From: Panorpa germanica
Lineage: Eukaryota > Arthropoda > Insecta > Mecoptera > Panorpidae
Direction: 5' to 3'
NCBI GenBank assembly: GCA_963678705.1
Contig: OY783206.1
Span: 9,497,807-9,561,806 of the forward strand
Length of the DNA stretch: 64,000 nucleotides
A model generated the notes under the pieces. That model searched no databases. It was not told where the DNA came from and was given only the letters and a program-made list of their open reading frames with translations. Each line of letters opens with the position of its first letter. Positions within the stretch are counted from its first letter, which is position 1. Position numbers and translations under genes: made by a program. Shown here in pieces: positions 4,902 through 59,029 of the stretch.

Positions 4902-4984
4902 TATACATTTGTTTTTTTTTTTTTTTTGATAAAAACGCGAAATTAAATAAGATATTTATTTAAAAGTATATATATATATAATAT

Positions 4985-5345
4985 ATATCAACTATAATCA
5001 GAATCAAAAGTAATCATTGCAAAACCACAGTTCACATGTACAAAATTAATATTAAATCTGACGATAGATGTCAATGTGGTGAAGAAGGAACTTTGGATCA
5101 TATTATATTTGAAAGCATAAATTATAGTTTAGAAAGAACAAAATTCAATAGTGAAATATTAGATGTGATTAAAACTTTTTCTGTTAATACTAAATTTTTG
5201 TTAAGTGATTCAAAATTAATTAATGAATTATTTAAATATTTAGAAATTTATAAAATTGAATTGTAAATTGTAAAATATGTATAAAAAAAGTTTGATGGTG
5301 GCTATGACGAACAAAAGTCCAGGCAAATAAATAAATAAATAAAAA
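4985..5345 (+). mobile_element. LINE 3' end (ORF2 C-terminus and tail)
   Basis: The frame from about 4988 to 5266 reads as the C-terminal end of a LINE ORF2: KSNHCKTTVHMYKINIKSD, then the Cys/His motif RCQCGEEGTLDHIIFE. That CxC...H pattern follows the RNase H region in many I/R1/Jockey-group elements. After the stop comes a short 3' untranslated region and a tail of ATAA repeats and poly(A) near 5323-5350. Everything upstream is lost, as in typical 5' truncation during reverse transcription. It abuts a (TA)n run and the hairpin element, so its target duplication cannot be seen. The sequence differs from LINE families J and L in this window. Confidence 0.7.
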
Positions 5346-7375
5346 AAAAGAATATATATACATATATATATATACATAAACCATTGGTAAAAAGTTTTTC
5401 CAAAAAAGACATAAAACAGGCACAATGTTTTAATCAAATAGAATTATTGCTTACGTGCGGCTGTTAATGTCCTTGAACAACATTTAAGTGATTCATAGAT
5501 TTCCGTCCGCAAACAAAATCCTCCAGTACTTGTAGCCCCAGGTCTCAGGTCCACTATTCTTATACTCAGTTTCCCCTAGGTGGGGTTAATTTATCGTAAA
5601 ACGTAAAAGATTTCTTGCAGCTTTATTGCAGAACAATTTACAAAAGGTCAACAAATCGTTTGTTCGTTCGTTTATAAATTTCATATAAAATTTTAAATTA
5701 TGCTTAAAATGGTGTCGTTATTATTATTAAGTCTAATTTAATATAAAGGGGGAGTCATTGTTTTAATATCAAATTAGCAGCGAATGAACACTATACTGCG
5801 TTATTTGCAGTTATAATATCTATGGGGTCGTATAATCAGTAGATCACGGGCCTGCATAAAATTTAATCGGTTTCAAAACACGAAAACAATGAGACCCTCT
5901 CTTCAAATAAGGCCTTGCTTGGAGACTTCTTACTGACGAAATATATCTTTGTATGTAAAATGTAATTTCTGCGCTTTAAAGAAACTTTCCGCTAAACATA
6001 AACAGTAAATGTTACCTTGTGACATTTTACTTAAACGAATGTTAGGTTTTGCCGAACAGACTTTTCTTAATTTCAGAATTTTCTTGAAGTTTGATATGTC
6101 ATTTAGAGCTTGTCAGTTATTTTAGTTTTTTATATTGAAGGATAATAAAACAAATATTATTAATACACTTTAACTTTATTGATATATAAATAGTTCTACA
6201 AATTAGTGATTCACATTAAGTAATTTAACCAACAATTAGTCTATCGATTATTCAGTGTTAATAGTTTGAAGGATAGACTGTGAATGATCTTCAGTACAAG
6301 ATTTTCTTATAGGTAACTTTAGTGCGTGAGACAAAACATATCCTGACTTGTTACATCTAGCTTTTGTTATCTAAAGTTCCAAGGGTTGATCTATAAGAGA
6401 CAGGCCCACACAATTGGCTGGAAATGTTTACGTAAGTCAGCTCTCACATATGAAAATATTATACTGACTTGAACTCTTGACTTATCAGTAGATAAATGCC
6501 TTGGGAACTTAAAACTAGACATAGTACTTAAACATTGCAGGTTTATTAGTACACTCATGTGAAAATCATAGACTTCTAGCTTTAGATATATCCAGGATAT
6601 AACACGAAATTTAGTAATCTAAAAGGATCTAGACAAAGAATCTTTATTATCGCTGAATCTCTAAAAAGAACCACTTAAGTTTGTACTGTGTAAGCCCATC
6701 GTCCAGTTCAATAGTGAAATAATATTCAAGTCTCAAGCATTTCATTTTTTATTTGTTTGTCATATTTTTAAAAAAAAATTGTTTGTTAACTCAAAGATAC
6801 CTGCTTTTTGTGCCTAATTCCATATGTTTTATGATGATACAAAAGTTAAGGCTAGTTTTAGAATTTTGTTCTAAAGTAGAAACGTGTTAGTAACATTATT
6901 GTCGTAGTGCTGTTGCAAACAACCCTTAGACGACGAACTAACCCCCTGTTGAGAGAGAAAATCATCCCCTTAAGTCCTTTATGGGTGTCATAGAAGTACG
7001 TTTATATTTTCATGAGATGTGCACCTTATGTAATATGTCCAAAAGTTTTCAAGGGTAATATATTAGTTGCCCTTATACACACACACACACACCCGTACAC
7101 CATGCATACTGTTATGACTATCATCCCCTAAGGAAGAGTAGAGGACGAGGGGGGTGTTATTCTTGAAAGGTAACGATAAGTAATACAAATACATACTGTC
7201 ACTGCTGACTTTGTTAAACATGTATTAAGTAAATTTCATCAAATTTATTTTGCTTTTCTTACTTTCTTGTGTTTCTATTGCTTTATTAATGAACCTGAAA
7301 AGTAAAGTGTCGCACCTGACATTTTGAAAATTGTTCAAGTTGTTCTTTTTTAAATGTTTGTAAAGGTGGAAACAT
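5346..7375. other. AT-rich stretch, no gene seen
   Basis: Short (TA)n near 5350-5377 and a CA tract near 7077-7092. No supportable coding or RNA gene. Confidence 0.5.
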
Positions 7376-51215: not shown

Positions 51216-51418
51216 TTCGAAAGATAACTTTTATTATAAAACCTTACATTATATTAACCTAAAGAAAATTCTGTATAAGATAAACTTTGTTATGTTAAAT
51301 TAAGCTTAAATATTTGTTATTATCTTTGGCGGGGTTAAGACTAAAATATAATTAAATATAGTCCAAATCACGATAGTTCAGCGGTGACTTATATTTAAAA
51401 GAGGTTATAAGAGCGGTA

Positions 51419-52219
51419 TCATCCTATATTATAATGTTCCAACTGTATGTTTATTTTCTTATATTCTTATATTCTTATGATCTTATATGTTTGGTACTGA
51501 ATTTTGTATGGCAGCGCGAAAACGGCTCCAGGGAAGTTATTAAAAAATTCCTATTTCGTAGAGAAAAAAATTCTAAGACTTTTGGCGTCCTCGGATTTTT
51601 CCCTGAATTTCATGGAAACCCGTAATTTTGGAAAAACTGGAAAAAAAGTGAACCCTTTTTTGCTGTATTACTTTTAATTCGTAAAAGATAGAAAGTTGAA
51701 ATTTTGCATGTGTATTAAGGTATTCAATTCTGACATTTCTCAAAAATTAGAAATTCAAAAAGTGAAAATGGGGGGGTTGAAGAAATTCGGGGGCCCGGTA
51801 GGGAACTTTGGAGAAAGTTCATATTCTGGATTCTAGAATAATTATGTATATTATTAATAAAAAAAAATTCAAAATTCCAAAATTTTATTTGGGGGCACGG
51901 GGGCAGTATTTGTCGAGAGTAAAAATTGTGCCAGAAAGTTGAAATTTTGTATATAGGCTAATCTTGGTAACTTATTTACGAATCGAAAAAAAAAATCCCA
52001 AATTTTGAAAAAAAGTTGGTCAAATAACGCATAAATTGAAAATATTTTTTATTTTGATAAAAAAAATATATTTTTTAGTCAATTTATATGTGTGCCGAGT
52101 TTATTTATTATTTCAATTTAAAAATAGAATTAAATATCAAATGTAATTACGAATTATTTTATTGGATTCAAATCATACACGGCAAAAGGACGTCGCATTG
52201 CGACGGGGGTAAACTCTAG
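51419..52219 (+). repeat. Helitron unit 1 (type A)
   Basis: Has the full 5' end. The 3' region is type A: CAATTTATATGTGTGCCGAG ... ACGTCGCATTGCGACGGGGG ... CTAG at 52216-52219. Hairpin GTCGC-ATT-GCGAC. Confidence 0.8.
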
Positions 52220-52981
52220 GGATCTTATATTCTTATATGTTTGGTAGTAAATTTTGTATGGCAGCGCAAAAACGGCTTCGTCAATGTTTTTGAAAATTGC
52301 CTGTTTCGTAGAGAAAATTTTTGTAAGACTTTTTGCGTCCCCGGATTTTCCCTGAATTGCCTGGAAACCCGTAGTTTTGGAAAAACTGGAAAAAAAGTGA
52401 GCCTTTTTTGCTGTATTACTTTTAATTCGTAAAAGATAGAAAGTTGAAATTTTGCATGTGTATTAAGGTATTTTATGCTGACATTTCGCAAAAATTAGAA
52501 ATTCAAAAATTGAAAAAGGGGGGGGGTTGAAGAAATTCGGGGGCTGGTAGAAAACTTTGGAGAAAGTTAATATTCTAGATTCTAGAATAATTAAGTGTAT
52601 TATTAATAAAAGAAAATTCAAAATTTCAAAATTTTATTTGGGGGCACGGGGGGCAGTAATTTCCGAGTGTAAAAATTGTGCTAGAAAGTAGAAAATTTGT
52701 ATATAGGCTAACCGTGATAACTTATTTACTAATCGAAAAAAAATCCCAAATTTTGAAAAAAAGTAGGTCAAATAACGCATGAATTGAAAATATTTTTTAT
52801 TTTGATATAAAAAATATATTTCCTTAGTCAGTTTGTATGAAAAATTAATTGTTATAATATGTAAAATTAATATAGGACGAATTTATTTATTATTTTAGTT
52901 TAAAAATGGAATTAAATTTTGACACGAAATTCAAGCCAAACACAAAAAACAGACGTCGCTTGCGACGGGGGTAAAAGCTAG
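52220..52981 (+). repeat. Helitron unit 2 (type B, 5'-shortened)
   Basis: Lacks roughly the first 50 bp of the unit, starting at GGATCTTATATTCTTATATG. The 3' region is type B: CAGTTTGTATGAAAAATTAA ... ACGTCGCTTGCGACGGGGG ... CTAG at 52978-52981. Confidence 0.8.
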
Positions 52982-53765
52982 TATATTATAATGTCCCAGG
53001 TGTATATTTGTATTCTTATATGTTTGGTTCAAATTTTGTATGGCATCTCGAAAACGGCTCCAGGGAAGTTTTTAAAAATTTCCTATTTCGTAGAGAAAAA
53101 AATTCTAAGACTTTTGGCGTCCCTGGATTTTTCCCTGAATTTCCTGGAAACCCGTAATTTTGGAAAAACTGGAAAAAAAGTGATCCCTTTTTTGCTGTAT
53201 TACTTTTAAGTCGTTAAAGATAGAAAGTTGAAATTTTGCATGTGTATTAAGCTATTTAAGGCTAATATTTCTCAAAAATTAGAAATTCAAAAATTGAAAA
53301 AGGGGGAGTTAAAAAAATTCGGGGGCCCGGTAGGAAACTTTGTAGAAAGTTCATATTCTGAATTCTATAATAATTAAGTATATTTTAAATGAAAAAAAAA
53401 TCAAAATTTCAAAATTTTATTTGGGGGCACGGGGGCAGTATTTTTCGAAAGTAAAAATTGTGCTAGAAAGTTGAAATTTTATATATAGCCTAACCTTGGT
53501 AAGTTATTTACGAATCAAAAAAAAAAATTCCAAATTTTGAAAAAAAGTTGGTCAAATAACGCATAAATTGAAAATAATTTTTATTTTGATAAAAAAAATA
53601 TATTTTTTAGTCAATTTATATGTGTCAATGTATTTGTGCGAGTTTATTTATTATTTCAATTTAAAAATAGAACAGTCAAATATAAAATTTAATTACGAAT
53701 TATTTTATTGGATTCAAATGATACACGCCAAAAAGACGTCGCATTGCGACGGGGGTAAACTCAAG
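52982..53765 (+). repeat. Helitron unit 3 (type A)
   Basis: Begins TATATTATAATGTCCCAG directly after the CTAG of unit 2, so the TC dinucleotide is missing at this junction. The 3' region is type A, with the terminal CTAG changed to CAAG (53762-53765). Confidence 0.8.
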
Positions 53766-54559
53766 TATATTATAATGTCCCAGCTGTATATTTATATTCT
53801 CATATGTTTATGTCTTTATATGTTTGGTTCGAATTTTGTATGGCATCTCGAAAACGGCTCCAGGGAAGTTTTTAAAAATTTCCTATTTTGTAGAGAAAAA
53901 AATTCTAAGACTTTTGGCGTCCCCGAATTTTCCCTGAATTTCCTGGAAACCCGTAATTTTGGAAAAACTGGAAAAAAAGTGATCCCTTTTTTGCTGTATT
54001 ACTTCTAATTCGTATAAGAGAGAAAGTTGAAATTTTGCATGTGTATTAAGGTATTCAATGCTGACATTTCTCAAAAATTAGAAATTCAAAAATTAAAAAA
54101 GGGGGGGTTAAAGAAATTCGGATGCCCGGCAAGGAACTTTGGAGAAAATTCATTTTCTGGATTCTAGAATAATTAAGTATATTATTAATAAAAAAAAAAT
54201 TCAAAATTTTAAAATTTTATTGGGGGGCACGAGGGCAGTATTTGCCGAGAGTAAAAATTGTGCTAGAAAGTTGAAATTTTGTATATAGGCTAACCTTGGT
54301 AACTTATTTACGAATCGAAAAAAAAATCCCAAATTTTGAAAAAAAGTTGTTCAAATATCGCATAAATTCAAAATATTTTTTATTTTGATATAAAAAATGT
54401 ATTTTCTTAGTCAGTTTGTATGAAAAATTAATTGTTATTAAATGTTAAATCAATATAGGACGAGTTTATTATATCAATAGAAAAATGGAATTAAATTTAG
54501 ACTTGAAATTCAAGCCACTCACAAAAAAAAACGTCGCTTGCGACGGGGGTAAAAGCTAG
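53766..54559 (+). repeat. Helitron unit 4 (type B)
   Basis: Begins TATATTATAATGTCCCAG after unit 3. The 3' region is type B and carries the intact terminal CTAG that forms the outer end of the array. Confidence 0.8.
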
Positions 54560-54837
54560 TAAATCTATAATGCGATAAAGAATTTTATCTTATTCATTTC
54601 TATATACATTATAGAAAAATAAATGAGTCAGTGCTTTTTAGTTATATCGGCAGTTTATACCCCACAACTTGTTTTAAGTATGAGTTGCAGCCGAACTCTC
54701 GTAATTTGAACTATATTTTGTTTTTTCTCTGTTTCTCCCACTTACTGTACGTTATTACCAGTACTAGTACAACTATTAAAGAAACTATTCGATACCTTAT
54801 TGGTAATATAAAATTAAAGAATTATGATTATGAACGC

Positions 54838-57201: not shown

Positions 57202-57415
57202 TAGTTCGAATTACAAGAGCTCGGCGGCGACTCATACTTAAAACAAGTTGTGAGGTATAAACTGTCGATATAACTAAAAAGCACTGACTCACTTATTTTT
57301 CTATAATGTATATAGAAACGAATAAGATAAAATTTATTATCGTATTATAAATTTATACCGCTCTTATAACCTCTTTTAAGTATAAGTCGCCGCCGAACTA
57401 TCGTGATTTGAACTA
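57202..57415. mobile_element. 214-bp MITE, uninterrupted sister copy
   Basis: Inverted repeats of about 60 bp: TAGTTCGAATTAC...GCTCGGCGGCGACTCATACT at the left, and, read inward from the right, TAGTTCAAATCACGATAGTT CGGCGGCGACTTATACTT. It is flanked by TA at 57200-57201 and 57416-57417. No coding capacity. It lies in opposite orientation to the copy at 51359-54713 and provides that copy's pre-insertion sequence. Confidence 0.85.
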
Positions 57416-57417
57416 TA

Positions 57418-58416
57418 TACTCAGCTACGTTTCTGGGAGAGACCTTGTACTTTACTATTTTTGAATTCGAATACGTCATTGCTTACAGTAGGTTTTACTT
57501 TATACGTTCCAGAAAGTTAGTTTTCAGATGTACAATTTGTAAAGCAAAATGTTTATTGTCATTTCTAAAGTTTATATTTTATGTGCGAGTAAGAATAATA
57601 ATAAAGTCTGGAAACTGCAATTGTTTTCCATAGATGTCACTAGTCTTCATTTTCCTAAAGTTTACAGTTATGTTAAATTTAGGTCCAGAAGCGTACTTTA
57701 CTGTAATTAGGGTAATAAGTATTTTCTTAATTTGGTTTTTAATTTGTTGTCGTTTTATTATTTCAGTATTCTGTGTTCTTTGTCTTTGCTACACACAATA
57801 ATATATGTAACTATATGAATGTGATCACTGATATCAGAAAACTAAACTTCAATTTTCCCACTCAAAGCTTTTCCAAATTTGAAAGCTCTCTTATGTATAT
57901 AATATAATCTTAAACCCAACACCAGTTGGTTAGTGTGCGCATGCTATTAATCACACCGTTGGGGGTTGGTGAGCTTTTAAGAACGGGAGCTTTAGATAGG
58001 GTATGATGTTATGTGCTATTTGGTGCACGAAGAGCTTTTTCAATGTTTGATATGAGGTAGGGTGATTTTTTTCTCGGAAGAGGTAGATTCGTAAAGGAGC
58101 AAGGTGTATTTAAGGGGAGTAGAAACAGTAGGGACACATAAATATTGCTAGATGTTGTCATTTTATTTTATATTAGGATTTCTCATTGTAATATTGTCAT
58201 AAGTATTTAGGGGAATGCTAAATAATATTTTTTTACTACGTATTTAATTTGGTGGGGTTTTTGGAGTATAATTTTATTCAATTTAATTATACTATAAACT
58301 TCTGAACACCACATATAAAAGCAGAACTTCTACATCACCATTAAAAATAATACAAGAAAAATTAAATTTCAAGAGATTCTTCAAAGAAATCTGTAATAAA
58401 ATAATCGAACAAAATA
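57418..58416. other. Spacer, no gene seen
   Basis: G-rich patch near 57968-58120. No supportable gene. Confidence 0.4.
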
Positions 58417-59029
58417 TTTTTTTAAACAAAATAAAAAATATTTTCAATTTATTTATTTTTTGACCAACTTTTTTTCAAAATTTGGAATTTTTTTTTCGAT
58501 TCGTTAATTAGGTACCCAAATTAGCCTATATAAAAAATTTCAACCTTCTAACACAATTTATACCATCGACAAAAACCATCCCCGTGCCCCCAAATGAAAT
58601 TTTTATTTATTTTTTTTTTTTAATATTATATTCAATTAAAACACAATCTAAAATTTGAGCTTTCTTTAAAGTTTCCTACCGGGCCCCCAAATTTCTCAGA
58701 ACCCTTTTTATAAAATTTTGAATTTCTAAATTTTGAAATATGTTTGCATTCAATAGCGTAATACATATGCAAAATTTCACCTTTCTATCTTTTACGAATA
58801 CAAAGTTATACAGCAAAGAAGGACCGACTTTTTTTCCAGTTTTTTCAAAATTACGGGTTTCCAGGAAATTCAGGATAAAATCCGGGGATGCCAAAAGTCT
58901 TAGAATTTTTTTCTCTACGAAATAGGAAATTTTCAAAAACTTCCCTGTAGCTGTTTTCGAGTTACCATACAAAATTCAGTACCAAACATATTAACATATA
59001 AGAATCACCTGGAACATAATATAGGATAA
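58417..59029 (-). mobile_element. Inverted, 3'-truncated Helitron copy
   Basis: On the minus strand this matches the array units from their 5' end (TTATCCTATATTAT, then GTTCCAGG) through AAGACTTTTGGCATCCCCGG and CCAAATTTTGAAAAAAAGTT to the A/T-rich region. It stops before the 3' hairpin and CTAG. It is more diverged than the array units are from one another. The open frames on both strands follow the repeat. Confidence 0.8.

Follow-up and report, generated by a model that had tools for sequence, protein, structure and literature searches.

A non-autonomous Helitron insertion, probably nested, with its filled and empty MITE sites in one window of the Panorpa germanica genome

The window analysed here, a stretch of 64,000 nucleotides (G000:C3:9497807-9561806) from a genome of 464 Mb that was searched as a whole, carries a 3141-bp insert of the non-autonomous Helitron type between an A and a T, and it is well supported that the exact ends of this insert can be read from an uninterrupted copy of the host MITE in the same window. 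The insert itself is likely a composite of two non-autonomous Helitrons, one nested three bases inside the other, within the MITE. The parts of the filled and the empty site are listed below; here and throughout, a caret marks an insertion point or a joint.

51359-51418, no strand assigned: left part of the interrupted 214-bp MITE, matching the intact copy at 197/214 together with the right part
51419-54559, forward strand: the entire 3141-bp composite, TCATCC...CTAG, flanked by A and T, with a 1-bp ambiguity (T)
54532-54545, forward strand: 3' terminal hairpin of the composite, from folding, 14 nt before the end
54560-54713, no strand assigned: right part of the interrupted MITE, from alignment to the intact copy and to 30 loci
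57202-57415, reverse strand: intact MITE, the empty site, in opposite orientation to the interrupted MITE

An earlier note, made from the letters of the window alone, had proposed that excising 51419-54559 leaves 214 bp, the length of the intact MITE, and that the joint falls exactly between A and T. Global alignment of the joined flanks (51359-51418 plus 54560-54713) with the reverse complement of 57202-57415, the check suggested in that note, agrees with both proposals: 197 of 214 positions are identical, 17 are mismatched and none is gapped, and the joint reads GCGGTA^TAAATC. Since the insert and the right flank both begin with T, a cut at 51420-54560 is equally possible. The host repeat has the properties of a MITE, i.e. 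a length of 214 bp, an imperfect inverted repeat over that whole length and many copies with fixed ends (40 copies scored among 1917 candidates). All 30 fetched MITE loci, a set that includes the window's own intact copy (L009), span the joint, 24 of them without gaps, and the consensus of these 24, GCGGTATAAATC, continues through the joint with no sign of the break that would have spoken against the excision. Among the aligned loci, agreement drops outside the TATA at both sides. The pairing of a filled and an empty site in the window is not a chance effect, because the 30 loci all align across the joint. That a single window supplies both sites is correct, but the accompanying remark that boundaries of non-autonomous Helitrons are usually obtained by aligning copies is overstated, as paralogous empty sites are in routine use.

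The excised piece has the termini ascribed to it, TC at the start and CTAG after a hairpin with a 5-bp stem. It reads TCATCC...GCTAG, and folding with RNA parameters places the stem (CGTCG/CGACG, loop CTTG) 14 nt before the 3' end of the composite. The 5' TC, the 3' CTAG (CTRR), the 3' hairpin and the insertion at A^T without target duplication are all found together. In canonical (Helitron1-like) Helitrons, a hairpin is expected shortly before the 3' end. Genome-wide, the base after the exact 3' end GCGACGGGGGTAAAAGCTAG is T at 2191 matches (1104 + 1087) and not T at 7 (3 + 4), a count that takes in internal joints. Within 38 array loci, motif searches that tolerate mismatches gave 111 3'-end matches, a few of which are not true 3' ends; 22 are free of unit sequence for 150 bp downstream, and at these terminal ends the next base is T in 21 and A in one. 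On the 5' side, a search for other copies with the same start yielded 306 exact matches to TCATCCTATATTA, against 31 for a reversed-pattern control, and A precedes 213 of the 306 (18 in the control). Not all of these are 5' ends: among eight places read, A stands in front of five (L004-L008, with L004 and L005 only 35 bp apart), the match in L003 sits within an array, and those in L001 and L002 lie on the reverse strand within a unit and represent no 5' ends. The family has the end sequences TC(A/C)TATATTATAATG at the 5' side and GCGACGGGG...CTAG at the 3' side, and the Helitron rule A^TC...hairpin...CTAG^T is well supported for it.

Because the units resemble a satellite in being tandem repeats of about 790 bp, a Helentron or some other non-Helitron insertion, e.g. 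a satellite captured by repair, might be imagined. Such an origin is extremely unlikely given the A^T rather than T^T target, the TC/CTAG ends with the 3' hairpin and several clean empty sites. The T^T insertion typical of Helentrons and DINE-1 was not seen at the empty sites read, where the target is A^T, and a Helentron was rejected on this ground.

The 3141 bp consist of four units of about 790 bp in the order X1 Y2 X3 Y4, whose 3' parts alternate. They are listed here with the two elements into which we group them.

51419-51421, forward strand: TCA, read as the first 3 bases of the outer element, which would follow from intact outer-type 5' ends being TCATATATTATAATGTCCC
51422-52981, forward strand: inner element X1-Y2, TCC...CTAG, 1560 bp, nearest fetched copy 99.4% identical (L052)
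52982-54559, forward strand: rest of the outer element (X3-Y4), TATATT...CTAG, with L065 as the nearest full-length copy fetched, 95.97% identical
51422-52219, forward strand: unit X1, 3' end ...AAACTCTAG with hairpin
52220-52981, forward strand: unit Y2, 3' end ...AAAAGCTAG with hairpin sequence
52982-53765, forward strand: unit X3, 3' end ...AAACTCAAG with hairpin sequence
53766-54559, forward strand: unit Y4, 3' end ...AAAAGCTAG with hairpin

The longest stop-free stretch in the excised 3141 bp is 155 codons, and there is no long reading frame. Tandem Repeats Finder reported no period of 790 bp or 1.57 kb, both of which exceed its longest period of 500. Elsewhere in the window, the reverse strand of 58408-59005 carries a single-unit relic. 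Its similarity to the units of the array is 79-84%; the 5' end (TTATCCTATATTATG...) is degraded, and inspection by eye showed no 3' end.

The interpretation in the earlier note was right as to a non-autonomous Helitron with TC and CTAG ends at A^T and a filled and an empty site in the window, but the arrival of the array as a single unit is not supported. In L064, and likewise in L059/L060/L062, close copies of X1-Y2 with the termini A^TCC and CTAG^T are found by themselves, and the remainder has the look of an older element broken at its own A^T. The outer element is made up of TCA and 52982-54559, 1581 bp in all (TCATATATT...CTAG), with the break at the A^T of its bases 3 and 4. With 51422-52981 left out, its 5' end becomes TCATATATTATAATGTCCC, and the same 19 bases are found at the uninterrupted ends of five of six loci compared (L046, L058, L065, L006 and L007), the sixth, L063, deviating at GTTCC. 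The outer element probably came first, because the nearest fetched copy is 99.4% identical for the inner element and 96% for the outer one, a ranking within the fetched loci (35 scored of 7996 candidates); the outer element is also 96.1% like L056 over 1366 columns. In the likely course of events, an older Helitron (TCATATATT...CTAG, 1581 bp, two units of about 790 bp) would have entered the MITE between A and T, and a younger one (TCC...CTAG, 1560 bp, two units) would then have entered the older at the A^T of bases 3 and 4. This would leave TCA to the left of the inner element and CTAG^TATATT at the internal joint, so that TCATCC would be TCA + TCC. Mobilization would have been by a RepHel transposase made elsewhere, presumably with rolling-circle transfer.

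Composites of the same layout lie at C2:2619386-2622513 (L040) and C7:1041415; they are 99.0% alike and have different flanks, and such composites thus seem to move whole. They match the window in layout, start and the first two joints, and the X3-Y4 joint differs. This brings in the idea that all four units (XYXY) entered the MITE as one Helitron, whose genuine 5' end would be TCATCC, after read-through of internal 3' ends. We regard this as unlikely, though with several points in its favour: the likeness of the C2 and C7 copies, the behaviour of the C2 copy at its own site and of L008 (both below), and the one known CTAG^TCATCC joint (L049/L067). On the other hand, X1 and Y2 in the window are 97.6-99.5% identical to the C2 and C7 copies (0.5-2.4% different), whereas X3 and Y4 are only 92.2-93.6% identical (6-8% different), and an array inherited whole should differ evenly unless converted; the deviating X3-Y4 joint also argues against it. 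Gene conversion could likewise account for the uneven divergence between the unit pairs. The confidence attached to the various readings is not divided among them as exclusive shares, and a single arrival could hold for the last step of a composite built by nesting.

For 15 elements, the flanking sequences were set against one another and against every fetched locus. The earlier note had named homology beyond TC or CTAG as evidence against the boundaries, and no element-specific homology was found over the outer ends. What the flanks do share is of other kinds. L059, L060 and L062 have host flanks in common on both sides, these flanks being mutual duplicates, L052 and L040 have about 50 bp in common, the left side of L068 is the end of a related family, and another unit follows 44 bp to the right of L041. 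In L006 and L007 (C1:2.02 Mb and 2.75 Mb) the 200 bp on the left are identical, contain (TCA)4TCC and are themselves part of array sequence; on the right, the flanks differ directly after CTAG.

A spanning empty site among the 15 elements was found within the fetched loci for the window element and for L066 only. L066, on contig C6, is 2463 bp long (A^TCATCC...CTAG^T), and its joined flanks match the window itself:

5175-5367, no strand assigned: empty site for L066, joint between 5255 and 5256, 193 bp at 89.6% identity, gap-free through the joint

The window thus holds a second empty site of the Helitron family, in the tail of another repeat. This dispersed-repeat tail (4984-5367) ends in an AAAT run and also occurs in L012 and in the flanks of L066. 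L012 is a more distant relative of the L066 site, which can be aligned across the joint only if gaps near it are allowed (167 identities, 32 mismatches, 24 gaps).

Genome-wide searches for empty sites were made for L008, L040 and L064. L008 (831 bp) has a clear empty site. Across the joint, 176 bp of its joined flanks are 100% identical to C1:5349435-5349610 and 99% identical to C1:3986283-3986458; a third place, C1:5975642-5975825, matches at 93% and contains a gap. L008 consists of one unit with a TCATCC start and has neither a CTAG^TATATT joint nor a remainder; its empty site assigns TCA to the insert, and TCATCC can thus move as a 5' end in its own right, which speaks against nesting and for a single arrival. 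L040, the C2 composite, has a partial empty site: 38 of the 40 matches listed cross the joint into repeat copies, with only 9-25 bp on the left side, and the other two are its own flanks. L064, which starts A^TCC, gave no empty site in the genome, its three matches being its own two flanks and a weak partial one.

A start of the form A^(TCA)nTCC or TCT occurs at nine loci. Six of them have a CTAG^TATATT joint downstream (L004, L039, L040, L041, L044 and L066), and L006, L007 and L008 do not. In L006 and L007 the TCATCC-type start lies within a copy that extends further and itself begins at CTAG^TCATATATT and A^TCATATATT; of the three, only L008 therefore stands alone.

The 5' ends and joints across the arrays fall into two main types, TCC-TATATTATAATG-TTCC and TCA-TATATTATAATG-TCCN, with C^T at bases 3 and 4 in the TCC type and A^T in the TCA type. 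Searches tolerating mismatches gave 112 raw 5' contexts, reduced to 85 distinct ones (the TCATCC start of L007, L005 and L045 were dropped as repeats). Among the 46 distinct contexts in which the joint is without the first three bases (CTAG^TATATT), 45 are of the TCCN type; these joints come from 20 loci, with overlap between L001 and L002 and between L049 and L067. A 5' end preceded by TCC or TCT is of the TTCC type in 25 of 29 contexts and one preceded by TCA is of the TCCN type in 6 of 7; three further contexts are of other kinds. The association between end type and joint type has a Fisher p of 1e-14, a value that is too small as the copies are related. For nesting, the important point is that the three-base loss is largely tied to the TCA type, the one with A^T at bases 3 and 4. 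CTAG^TC joints (CTAG^TCA, TCC or TCATCC) make up 9 of the 85 contexts, five of them after a related GCGAAGCGCTAG end; in L049/L067, CTAG^TCATCC is found within an array.

The direction of the units and the likeness of neighbours bear on another account, tandem growth without any landing, in which rolling-circle read-through, circle joining or unequal exchange would have multiplied the units and TCATCC would be a mere 5' variant. Unit sequence in the next 150 bp runs in the same direction at 87 of 89 3'-end matches, some of which are not immediate joints and a few not true 3' ends. An exact 19-base pattern for inverted insertion at TCA^TATATT had no match genome-wide. Independent landings at a symmetric target such as A^T should frequently produce inverted joints, and the absence of any match to this pattern counts against nesting. 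In L046 (1502-4594), two neighbouring dimers of 1.55 kb are 100% identical over 1545 aligned bases, joined by CTAG^TATATT and starting with a single TCA, whereas simple nesting of a TCA element predicts TCATCA; neighbours in L001 are 99.8% identical. The L046 dimers look like a very recent tandem duplication or conversion. All this favours growth in place, and yet a precise circle joint would be CTAG^TC, the form seen in just those 9 of 85 contexts, and nearly all cases of the three-base loss are in elements that have A^T at that position. On balance we lean against tandem growth without landing, while giving it real weight.

The joint bias suggests a mechanism with polarity, or a few old joints spread by recombination. 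One such mechanism, which we consider doubtful, is self-targeting: the A^T at bases 3 and 4 of TCA-type elements would be a transposase nick site at which copies, whether incoming or re-joining, are placed with fixed polarity, giving growth on the 5' side and CTAG^TATATT joints. If so, each round would add one head-to-tail unit at the 5' side. Our preferred reading of the window remains the nesting of two Helitrons.

A possible source of transposase was sought by profile search for PF14214 genes, with 150 matches scored of 893 candidates; autonomous Helitron genes are numerous in this genome. Of the 150, 25 lie in a 1119-codon open frame and 22 of these score equally, a pattern suggesting that an autonomous family was active in recent times. 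Its copies L069 and L070 start A^TCTTAATATATAAAAG and end GCCGGGTCAGCTAG^T, the same A^T rule. As these ends are unlike those of the array, the 1119-codon family was rejected as its partner, and no transposase with array-matching ends was found, the ends having been read in this one family among the PF14214 matches.

Related arrays occur elsewhere in the genome. The related 3' end GCGACGGGGCGAAGCGCTAG has 376 + 406 exact matches genome-wide and appears eight times on one strand at G000:C1:15743481-15769873, where five of seven spacings are 3853-3861 bp; this region appears to be a long Helitron-like tandem array. At G000:C1:4073365-4086497, the spacings of GCGACGGGGGTAAAAGCTAGT run two times through the series 2570, 1877 and 834 bp before 2570 comes again, which makes a higher-order repeat with a length of 5281 bp.

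The finding is sound and ordinary in kind, as both paralogous empty sites and head-to-tail Helitron arrays are already established. Paralogous empty sites are the standard boundary proof (PMC4067079) and vacant sites were used in maize (PMC2267711). Bypassed termination is the explanation offered for the tandem arrays of Myotis and Bombyx (PMC4067079, section 15), and insertion in or at a resident 5' end is proposed for maize (PMC2267711) and Metarhizium (PMC5148889). As far as its description allows comparison, Lepidoptera Hel-2 (PMC4344730) is likewise non-autonomous, with 5'-TC, 3'-CTAG, a 3' hairpin and flanking A and T, but has a 250-bp consensus against the repeated unit of about 790 bp here. 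Bat Helraiser/Helibat1 (PMC4778049 and PMC5876387) resembles our family in TC/CTAG ends, AT target, bypassable hairpin terminator and head-to-tail junctions; it differs in that the common joint here is CTAG^TATATT, not CTAG^TC, and that no transposase with matching ends was found here (the ends of one autonomous family were read). A published pair of two unlike Helitrons in a row is similar, one of its authors' two proposals being a landing at an AT composed of the host A and the T of the resident 5' end; in our case it is mostly the inner A^T, at bases 3 and 4 of the resident element, that serves as target. The tandems of Metarhizium (PMC5148889) and of Myotis and Bombyx (PMC4067079) raise the same rival readings of 5'-end insertion versus rolling-circle replication or bypassed termination, and here, unlike there, an association between 5' end type and joint type bears on the choice.

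For this abundant non-autonomous Helitron family, base-exact ends have been obtained. The association of end type with joint type also provides a handle, from sequence only, on the old question of how tandem Helitrons form, with repeated landing and rolling-circle concatenation as the alternatives.
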